Positions 33,126 to 42,551 of a stretch of 64,000 nucleotides of DNA are shown here, piece after piece. The translations under genes were made by a program, and so were the position numbers. The first letter of the stretch is position 1, and every line of letters starts with the position of its first letter. This DNA comes from Candidatus Melainabacteria bacterium (GTDB lineage Bacteria; Cyanobacteriota; Vampirovibrionia; Obscuribacterales; Obscuribacteraceae). Under the pieces are notes generated by a model that was not told the origin of the DNA, searched no databases, and worked only from the letters and a program-made list of their open reading frames with translations. Location: assembly GCA_003963305.1 (NCBI GenBank), contig RXJR01000004.1:308562-372561 (forward strand), read 5' to 3'.

Positions 33126-35444
33126 ATGAAAAAGTCACTTGTAATCTCCGAGCAAGACAGCATTGCGGCGATACTCGAAAACGAACGTGTGGTCGAGTTC
33201 TTCGTAAACCGCGGTGAATTGCTGCTGGGTGACATTTATTCAGCCACCGTGGAAAACATCCTGCCCGGCATCGACGCTGCTTTCGTCAACCTGGGCAAAG
33301 ACAAAATGGGCTTTCTCCACGCCAACGACGTGCCCGGGCAGGGTCTGTTGAAAGAACGCCTGGTACCCAAACAAAAATTACTGGTGCAGATCACTAAAGA
33401 ACCAACCGGCCACAAGGGACCAAGAGTTTCCACAGCAATCAGTCTGCCTGGAAGATTCCTTGTACTCGTTCCCGAAGAGCGAGGAGTCTCGATTTCACGA
33501 CGCATCAGCGAAGCGAGAGAAAGAGCCCGCTTGAAATCAGTGGTCAACCTGATGAAGCCTCCCGGCGTCGGTCTAATCATCCGTACAGAAGCTAAAGCAC
33601 AGGGCGAGAGTGAACTTTTCGAAGATTTCGAGCAGCTCTGGGATCGCTGGCAGACGGTGGTTTCAGAAGGCGAGGCTTCAATCGGTCCATCGCTCATTTA
33701 TAGAGACCAGGATTTGTTGTTCCGCGTCATCCGTGATGCTTATTCCAACGATGTAAGCGAAATCATCTGCGACAGCCAGGACGGGCAGAAGCGCGCCCAG
33801 GAATACTTGCAAGGCTGGGCCGGTCGCACGACGCGCGTCAGTTATCACACTGGCGATGACAGCTTGCTGGTTTCAAAAGGTGTCGATAAAGAGATCGAAG
33901 CCGCTCTCTCCGACCGGGTCGAACTGCCAAGCGGTGGACACCTCAACATTCAACCGACCGAAGCCCTGACCGTTATCGACGTCAACTCGGGTCGATTCAC
34001 AAGTTCGCGCACCCAGGCTGAGACCGTGCGCAGAACCAATGTCGAAGCGGCACAGGAAATTCCGCGGCAGTTGCGATTGCGCAATATCGGCGGCATGGTG
34101 ATAGTCGATTTTATCGACATGGACAGCCGCAAAGACCAACAACAAGTCCTGGAAGTTTTCCAGAGAGTGCTGGAAGAAGACCGTGCCAAGCCTCAAGTCG
34201 GCCAACTTTCAGACCTCGGTCTGGTCGAGTTGACTCGTCGCCGCCAGGGTCAGAGCCTGCGTGAGCTCTTCACCGTTCATTGCACAGGCTGCTCAGGCTT
34301 AGGCGTAGTGCCGACGCTCGAGCTTGGAACTGCCGAACACCGTCGTGTAATCAGCTTCAAGAGTCCAGAAGAAACGACCAAAACTCGCGGCGGCAACAAC
34401 CGCAGACCACTCCGGCAGCAAAATGCCGGTGGTGGACAGTTGCGCGCAGCAACCGCTCACAACGGTCGAATTCTGCCGACAGTTGACGAAGTTGAGGAAG
34501 AAGACTTCACAGACGTGCCTGAGGAAATTCTGGATCAAATGCCGGACGACCTGCTCGCCGACCCAGCCGAACGCGAGTTGAAAGGCGGCGTAAAAAGAGC
34601 TGCATACAATGAATCGGAGTCTGAAGACGAAGAAGACAACGATCAAGCCCAGTTCGACGCGCACAACGAAGACTTCGCCCCTAAGGCCAATCTCTTTGAA
34701 GAAAGCTTCAGCGACGACGATGAGGAAGAGTCGACCACGTTGACTGAAAACATCACTGCAGTCGAACACGTCTTCAACGAAATGGGTGCACGCCCGCGCC
34801 AGGAAACTCCGGCCGAACAAATCGCCGCTGAAGCTTCCGAAGTGCGACCTTACGAGCAAGCTGAGCCACATGTTCATGCCGAGCCGGAAGAGTCGAGCCA
34901 GGAGGAGCAGCCGGAAGTGTCCGTGGAACACGAGACAGAAGAAGATCTGGTGTCGTTTGCCGACAGCAGTCCCTTCCAAACTGAATACGATCCTGTCACA
35001 GGAACGTATCGGCTCAAAGCTCGAGTTGTCGAGTCTGAAAGCCAGCAGGAAGGTGCTTCTCAACACTCCGAGCATCACGACCATGGTCACTCCCATGAGC
35101 ACGAGCATGAGCATTCGCACGAGCACAACGGCGAGCATGCTCACCAACACGAGCACGGGCACAATGAACATGAACACTCGCACGAGCATGGTCATGACCA
35201 CTCTCACGAGCACGGGCATGAGCAGCATGGACATGAATCCGGCTCTAGCTCGATGCAAGGAGAGCAGTTGAACTTGTTCGGTGCAAATGAACATGAAGAC
35301 ACCTCAGGCTCACATCAATCTGAAGCTCCAACCTGGAACGACACCACAGGCGATGCCAGTGAAGGCGGACAGGAAGAGCACAGCGAACAACATGAGCAGA
35401 GTGTCTATTCAGGCTCGCAGCAGTGGGGCGAAGATAACGGCTAG
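33126..35444 (+). CDS. rne: Ribonuclease E/G family endoribonuclease with His-rich C-terminal tail
   Basis: A 772-residue RNase E/G. An S1-type RNA-binding domain opens it (about 35-125: GDIYSATVENILPGIDAAFVNLG). VVNLMKPPGVGLIIRTEA and the DNase I-like catalytic region follow, with TVIDVNSGRF and GMVIVDFIDM carrying the two Mg-binding Asp. C386 and C389 (CTGC) match the zinc-link of RNase E. From about 415 the protein is acidic and disordered. Residues 647-704 hold 27 His among 58, alternating with Glu, Ser and Gly. The tail ends in a short segment with QLNLFGANEHED. The catalytic half is ordinary; the tail is not. It follows the radical SAM/DUF2344 gene. RNase G is the alternative name. Confidence 0.94.
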   Translation: MKKSLVISEQDSIAAILENERVVEFFVNRGELLLGDIYSATVENILPGIDAAFVNLGKDKMGFLHANDVPGQGLLKERLVPKQKLLVQITKEPTGHKGPRVSTAISLPGRFLVLVPEERGVSISRRISEARERARLKSVVNLMKPPGVGLIIRTEAKAQGESELFEDFEQLWDRWQTVVSEGEASIGPSLIYRDQDLLFRVIRDAYSNDVSEIICDSQDGQKRAQEYLQGWAGRTTRVSYHTGDDSLLVSKGVDKEIEAALSDRVELPSGGHLNIQPTEALTVIDVNSGRFTSSRTQAETVRRTNVEAAQEIPRQLRLRNIGGMVIVDFIDMDSRKDQQQVLEVFQRVLEEDRAKPQVGQLSDLGLVELTRRRQGQSLRELFTVHCTGCSGLGVVPTLELGTAEHRRVISFKSPEETTKTRGGNNRRPLRQQNAGGGQLRAATAHNGRILPTVDEVEEEDFTDVPEEILDQMPDDLLADPAERELKGGVKRAAYNESESEDEEDNDQAQFDAHNEDFAPKANLFEESFSDDDEEESTTLTENITAVEHVFNEMGARPRQETPAEQIAAEASEVRPYEQAEPHVHAEPEESSQEEQPEVSVEHETEEDLVSFADSSPFQTEYDPVTGTYRLKARVVESESQQEGASQHSEHHDHGHSHEHEHEHSHEHNGEHAHQHEHGHNEHEHSHEHGHDHSHEHGHEQHGHESGSSSMQGEQLNLFGANEHEDTSGSHQSEAPTWNDTTGDASEGGQEEHSEQHEQSVYSGSQQWGEDNG
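35061..35237 (+). repeat. His-codon-rich CAY GAG tract
   Basis: Degenerate repeats of CAC/CAT with GAG, TCN and GGN codons encode the histidine-rich part of the RNase E/G tail. Mixed CAC and CAT usage argues for selection at the protein level. Confidence 0.8.
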
Positions 35445-41990: not shown

Positions 41991-42551
41991 TCAAGTTGAT
42001 GTTTTTCCGGCCGAACGACCGGAAGTTTTTCGACTTTCGCCAACTGGGCGGCTCATTGGCTGTAATACGGGCTTTTTCTGCTCCCGGCAGGTTGGACAGA
42101 GCCCGAAGATCTTGAACTGCGCATCTATTACTTCGAAGTTGTGACGAGCGCCAATTTTCTGCCCTGCTTCCTCCAGGAAGTGATCTTCGAACTCGAGAGT
42201 CATATTGCAACCAATGCAAATGATGTGCTGATGCGGCAATGTGTCTTGCTTGAGTTCGTAATGTTTATGACCTTCAGCAAAGTCGAGTTCTCTCAACAAC
42301 CCGAGCGATGAAAGCAGCTTCAGCGTTCGGTAAGCTGTAGCCAGACTGACATTCGAGCCTAACTCGAGCAGCTTGGCGTGTAATTCCTCTGCTGAAAGGT
42401 GGTTGCCGTGCGGCAAGTCGCGAAAGATCTGCAAAATGGTTTCGCGTTGCGCCGTGATGCGGTGCCCACGTTTGCGCAATGAATCGAAAACGGGATCAGA
42501 GGTGTTCTGTCCGTCTGCTTGCATCGCCTTGACGTCGCTCGGGTCAGTCAC
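41991..42551 (-). CDS. fur: Fur-family metal-dependent transcriptional regulator
   Basis: A 186-residue Fur protein. The DNA-binding winged helix covers about 20-95 (RGHRITAQRETILQIF, SLATAYRTLKLLSSLGLL). The dimer domain has HQHIICIGCNMTLEFED with C112 and C115 and LCPTC with C152 and C155, a structural zinc site. HKHYEL (95-100) is the usual metal ligand region. The last 30 residues are a basic Ser/Arg-rich tail not typical of Fur. Start is GTG 42551 with GGAGC 5 bases upstream. It could be Fur, Zur or PerR; the FeoA neighbour favours iron. Confidence 0.92.
   Translation of the reverse strand: MTDPSDVKAMQADGQNTSDPVFDSLRKRGHRITAQRETILQIFRDLPHGNHLSAEELHAKLLELGSNVSLATAYRTLKLLSSLGLLRELDFAEGHKHYELKQDTLPHQHIICIGCNMTLEFEDHFLEEAGQKIGARHNFEVIDAQFKIFGLCPTCREQKKPVLQPMSRPVGESRKTSGRSAGKTST

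Follow-up and report, generated by a model that had tools for sequence, protein, structure and literature searches.

A histidine-rich spacer in the RNase E tail of an Obscuribacterales bacterium and its possible response to metal and protons

Background

The tails of RNase E are known scaffolds, and the motifs they carry differ between phyla. Two described systems are close enough to be compared with the locus presented here. The RNase E of the Caulobacter crescentus BR-bodies has recently been shown to bind Cu2+ through histidines of its C-terminal region, ESEEM indicated coordination by one histidine per Cu site, and condensates of the enzyme protect PNPase from copper, so that it stays active in the presence of the metal (PMC12510024). 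In the cyanobacterial enzymes of the Anabaena/Synechocystis type (NF052586) no small domain of the E. coli type has been described, and in Anabaena PNPase binds at the nonapeptide RRRRRRSSA (PMC10989914). The Caulobacter copper paper is the only relevant work we found in the open-access literature on histidine-rich RNase E. We found no report there, within an incomplete coverage, of a tail like the one described below.

The window analysed here is a stretch of 64,000 nucleotides from a Candidatus Melainabacteria bacterium of the Obscuribacterales, which is uncultured, lacks photosynthesis and is related to cyanobacteria. Like the Caulobacter protein, its RNase E has a disordered C-terminal tail, here a putative scaffold, but the resemblance has limits. 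Histidines of the region studied in Caulobacter bind Cu2+ and metal alters the state of the condensate; here the histidines are putative ligands. Caulobacter uses one histidine per Cu site; this tail has 38 histidines, 27 of them in one tract. The Caulobacter tail is made of alternating charge blocks and this one is nearly uniformly acidic. Compared with the cyanobacterial enzymes, the catalytic region is about 50-52% identical, and both tails are disordered, with conserved islands and variable stretches. However, the cyanobacterial tails are histidine-poor and end in RRRRRRSSA, a C-terminal motif that is absent from our protein and from the Obscuribacterales tails generally, which have their own, different set of conserved motifs. 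The protein scores 472.9 bits against NF052586, below the equivalog cut-off of 900. We also considered homology between its tail islands and the cyanobacterial subregions and rejected it, since the two sets do not align (hhalign probability 0.3%). We classify the protein as an RNase E of neither the cyanobacterial nor the charge-block subtype. A natural tail with a block of 27 histidines, together with relatives that have or lack one, offers a comparative series for the study of a possible metal control of bacterial RNA-decay bodies.

The RNase E gene and its tail

The gene is a single uninterrupted open frame at 33126-35444 on the forward strand, encoding 772 amino acids. The initial annotation called it RNase E/G, and this is supported. 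Pfam PF10150 matches residues 106-374 (3.8e-93, 312 bits against a cut-off of 25.5), TIGR00757 exceeds its curated cut-off (412 bits against 326), and E. coli RNase E structures match residues 9-417 (1.6e-63). It is the only copy, as a PF10150 search of the 7.48 Mb genome returns one match (9e-94). RNase_E_G is the sole domain that Pfam finds in the protein, and the same search finds no G3E GTPase domain of the HypB family. Relatives in named genomes come from Ca. Melainabacteria or Obscuribacterales assemblies.

The catalytic region comprises residues 1-394 (33126-34307, forward strand), and alignment to chain 2vrt_A sets its D285, N287 and D328 opposite E. coli D303, N305 and D346. These three columns are invariant in 28 aligned sequences that include cyanobacteria. 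So are C386, C389, G391 and G393 of the Zn-link, a conserved CTGCSGLG of the CxxCxGxG type at 34281-34304 (forward strand). With its catalytic and Zn-link residues intact, the protein is by these alignments an ordinary RNase E. One genus of relatives (L014, L015 and L206) has the Zn-link altered to CTSC(L/H)(S/T)HG, keeping the cysteines and losing the first glycine. A gene that looks from its sequence like a Fur-family regulator lies at 41991-42551 on the reverse strand of the window, about 6.5 kb downstream of the RNase E gene.

The tail after the Zn-link is 378 residues long and has 93 D+E against 21 K+R, so the acidic region noted at the outset ahead of the histidine tract is real. Computed charge at pH 7.6 gives one basic stretch (+4) followed exclusively by acidic segments, and the alternating positive and negative blocks of BR-bodies are absent. 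The tail is predicted to be disordered. The full-length AlphaFold model behind this prediction was built from 28 sequences and is poor (mean pLDDT 52, pTM 0.33), and we rely on it solely for disorder and for one possible hairpin.

Alignments of 33 and of 41 family tails show conservation limited to short islands, with fast-evolving linkers between them. The family consensus of the islands reads LRAA..GR..PT, VPEEIL.Q.P..LL, AVE.V..E, E.DPVTG.YRLK.K and QL.L. On the forward strand of the window, island 1, LRAATAHNGRILPTV, lies at 34440-34484 and ends an R/G-rich basic stretch; island 2, VPEEILDQMPDDLL, at 34515-34556 is partly helical in the low-confidence model; and island 3, ITAVEHVFNEM, lies at 34752-34784. 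Island 4, PFQTEYDPVTGTYRLKA with the core TEYDPVTGTYRLKA, is found at 34971-35021, occurs once in the genome, and is predicted with modest confidence to form a beta hairpin. Island 5, GEQLNLF (35259-35279), belongs to the QLxL type that most family tails possess. We infer that such a tail, with short motifs for partners or RNA set among variable linkers, is a degradosome scaffold. Island 4 is a candidate docking motif that would replace the PNPase nonapeptide of cyanobacteria. Its core is kept across the family; the order-level relatives L213 and L214 have DPNTGIYRLKIK near the C terminus, and at class level the likeness is weak (VSGVFTLTP in L216-L218).

The histidine-rich spacer

Residues 647-704 contain 27 histidines in 58 positions, just as first reported. 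The residue numbers and the end at 35237 were also given correctly at that time, but the tract begins at 35064 on the forward strand, and the earlier start of 35061 is the codon of Q646. The pLDDT is below 50 throughout. Most histidines follow an HxH register in which E, S, G or D takes the middle place. It is not peculiar to this protein: among 251 histidines in ten tails, another histidine stands at +2 for 105 and at +4 for 93, whereas positions +1 and +3 have one for 12 and 33.

Such a composition is extreme for this genome. Histidine makes up 2.2% of 705 non-overlapping ORFs in an 864 kb sample that includes the window, and against that background 27 in 58 has a binomial P of about 4e-29. 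Ranked by this sample, together with a pattern search of the whole-genome DNA, the tract is the top 58-residue window among the 705 ORFs, and the next two windows have 15 histidines each. The HxHxHxHxH pattern picked out further genuine histidine-tract genes, limited in number, which include HypB, LarC, a MerC-like protein, a SAM methyltransferase, an SLT transglycosylase and a GDSL lipase. A SAM-dependent methyltransferase of this genome (L154:4912-5847, forward strand) has an in-frame HGHDHDHGHGHGHDHGHDHGHNHGHDHGH segment within its C-terminal half.

The histidine codons are 15 CAC and 12 CAT, where the genome sample has 2902 CAC and 2613 CAT. Two weak, imperfect 24-nt tandem repeats lie within the tract (77% and 86% match). 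Small duplications, though old ones, have thus probably contributed to its growth.

Distribution among relatives

In the genus of the window (L002, L003 and L004) the tract occupies the linker between DPVTGxYRLK and QLxL, and it is common to all three congeners. The corresponding linker is also histidine-rich in L011 and L012. Elsewhere the tract is in other places: C-terminal of QLxL in L020 and L212, near the C terminus in L010, and ahead of the DPVTG island in L008 and L026, with an additional tract ahead of VPEEIL in L008 and L031. At least three different tail linkers thus carry histidine tracts among the 41 family members. Eleven of these 41, from 7 genera, reach at least 10 histidines per 58, and the others go down to 1; L006, L013, L014, L018, L022, L023 and L030, for example, have no histidine-rich linker. 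Outside the family, the class-level relatives have at most 6 per 58 in their RNase E tails, and none of the cyanobacterial tails examined exceeds 7.

On a tree of the catalytic core the histidine-rich label needs 7 changes, of which at least 5 are forced by well supported branches. Related species have evolved similar histidine stretches several times, in different places of the same tail. The initial annotation proposed aligning the tails of relatives and took absence from all of them as the case against its idea. The alignment shows the tract in all three congeners and comparable tracts in other genera, but also many relatives that have none. Since many close relatives do without it, the tract is not needed for the enzyme; a shifting position, a recurring composition and so many tails without it mark the feature as dispensable.

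Is the tract maintained?

The catalytic cores of L002 and L003 differ with a dS of 1.34 and a dN of 0.01, so synonymous sites are near saturation. Even so, 23 of 24 aligned histidines of the tract are kept between these two species, one is changed, and three stand opposite gaps. The kept histidines use the same codon in 12 cases and the other codon in 11. A neutral simulation run to the same distance, 1.34 changes per site, retains about 4 of the 27 histidines and at most 10; L003 has 28. This suggests selection for histidine in the two closest species, read with the caveat that repeats align histidine to histidine easily and that composition could also persist if repeats turn over slowly. In the comparison with L004, which is more distant, 11 of 23 aligned histidines are kept and 12 are changed.

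The mixing of CAC and CAT had been offered as an argument against simple recent slippage, and it gains force from this comparison. Recent replication slippage is unlikely and we reject it, because codons are mixed and nearly all aligned histidines have been kept, about half of them with the other codon, over near-saturated synonymous sites. A genome-wide histidine bias of disordered regions is not supported. The disordered part of IF-2, as covered within the loci examined, has at most 4 histidines per 58 in 30 of the same genomes, and RNase E histidine content does not correlate with how many HxHxHxHxH sites the rest of the genome contains (Spearman 0.22, p 0.23). Genome size gave a raw Spearman of 0.50 (p 0.0008), but independent phylogenetic pairs are not significant, so we do not regard it as the driver.

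Possible functions of the spacer

Metal-binding regions were the first likeness proposed for this tract, and for composition the likeness holds. The tract's other significant matches in family genomes, where they can be placed, are mostly to histidine-rich parts of the nickel proteins HypB and LarC, which likewise have a stretch dense in HxH and interspersed with D, E, S and G. This is a local similarity by composition and not homology, as our tract sits in an RNA-decay enzyme that has no GTPase or nickel-insertion domain. The computed charge of the spacer goes from -13.7 at pH 7.6 to +3.3 at pH 6 and +13 at pH 5.

The reading we prefer, tentatively and at somewhat less than even confidence, is that the tract is a spacer that responds to metal and protons and tunes self-association of the degradosome. 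We prefer it because of the HxH make-up shared with HypB and LarC, the computed charge switch, and the Caulobacter precedent for copper binding by histidine. The organism's single RNase E would use its disordered acidic tail as the degradosome scaffold, and in the genus of the window the linker between DPVTGxYRLK and QLxL has become an HxH-rich spacer. At the pH of the cytoplasm this spacer is expected to bind several ions of Zn, Ni or Cu, and on acidification of the cell it would take up protons. Metal and protons alike would switch it from a net charge of about -14 to neutral or positive within a strongly negative tail. Switched tails might then cross-link or attract each other, RNase E would move between dispersed and clustered forms, and clustering could shield degradosome enzymes from excess metal. 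Extreme composition, HxH register, maintenance among congeners, recurrence and the contrast with IF-2 count for this reading; the dispensability of the tract, its weaker conservation in the third congener and the absence of charge blocks count against it. A bolder version, which we consider unlikely, is that RNA decay in the Obscuribacterales is tied directly to metal, with recurrent histidine spacers sensing divalent metal and reversibly clustering the degradosome. If true, bulk mRNA turnover would have a metal switch built into it.

A serious rival, doubtful on balance in our opinion, is that this is a compositional spacer with no metal role. Linkers of this tail would need only length, solubility and disorder, and histidine repeats born by duplication may simply be tolerated in them. 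The position and size of the tract vary freely between lineages and most lineages lack it, constraint falls on the islands and not on the linkers, and the tract contains the imperfect 24-nt repeats. Moreover, the methyltransferase, transglycosylase and lipase with histidine tracts in this genome are non-metal proteins. Against this rival stand the retention of histidine at near-saturated synonymous divergence, the IF-2 region that is never histidine-rich in the same genomes, and the lack of correlation with HxHxHxHxH sites elsewhere. The spacer could instead be mainly a pH sensor, in which protonation under acid stress makes it positive and folds it onto the acidic tail, altering degradosome assembly or RNA access. 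We find this rather improbable. In its favor, the computed charge changes greatly from pH 7.6 to pH 5, and pH can drive phase separation of histidine-rich disordered peptides (PMC6884462). However, congener G002 has a tract with fewer histidines rather than more, and a spacing of HxH is met more typically among metal ligands. One congener (L062) is named for a palsa sample, and palsa peat is acid, which favors the pH sensor; bacterial cytoplasm seldom stays below pH 6.5, which does not.

Slightly less probable still, we believe, is a store of nickel or zinc, or a source of zinc for the Zn-link of the same protein, much as histidine-rich tails of HypB hold nickel. The composition resembles HypB and LarC, the Zn-link cysteines are there to be supplied, and HypB proteins that have histidine-rich regions take up several Ni, which they may keep as a store (PMC7055735). 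But tract presence shows no association with these nickel genes: almost every family genome has HypB and LarC, be its RNase E histidine-rich or not, and congener G001 has the tract but no HypB match over the cut-off, in a genome that is 87% complete. The two nickel proteins thus occur independently of the tract, and we do not favor a role specific to nickel. The tract is missing from relatives whose Zn-link is intact, and RNase E is not known as an enzyme abundant enough for a store, which would also argue against one.

Other features of the histidine-rich sequence

Two further open frames overlap the region, one in the +1 frame at 34786-35271 and one antisense at 34299-35294; most likely, both merely follow from a composition rich in CAY. 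A HypB gene is apparently split over two contig ends (the end of L147 and the start of L148, C19/C20), exactly in its long HSHDHDHSHDHGH repeat, so this repeat probably broke the assembly.
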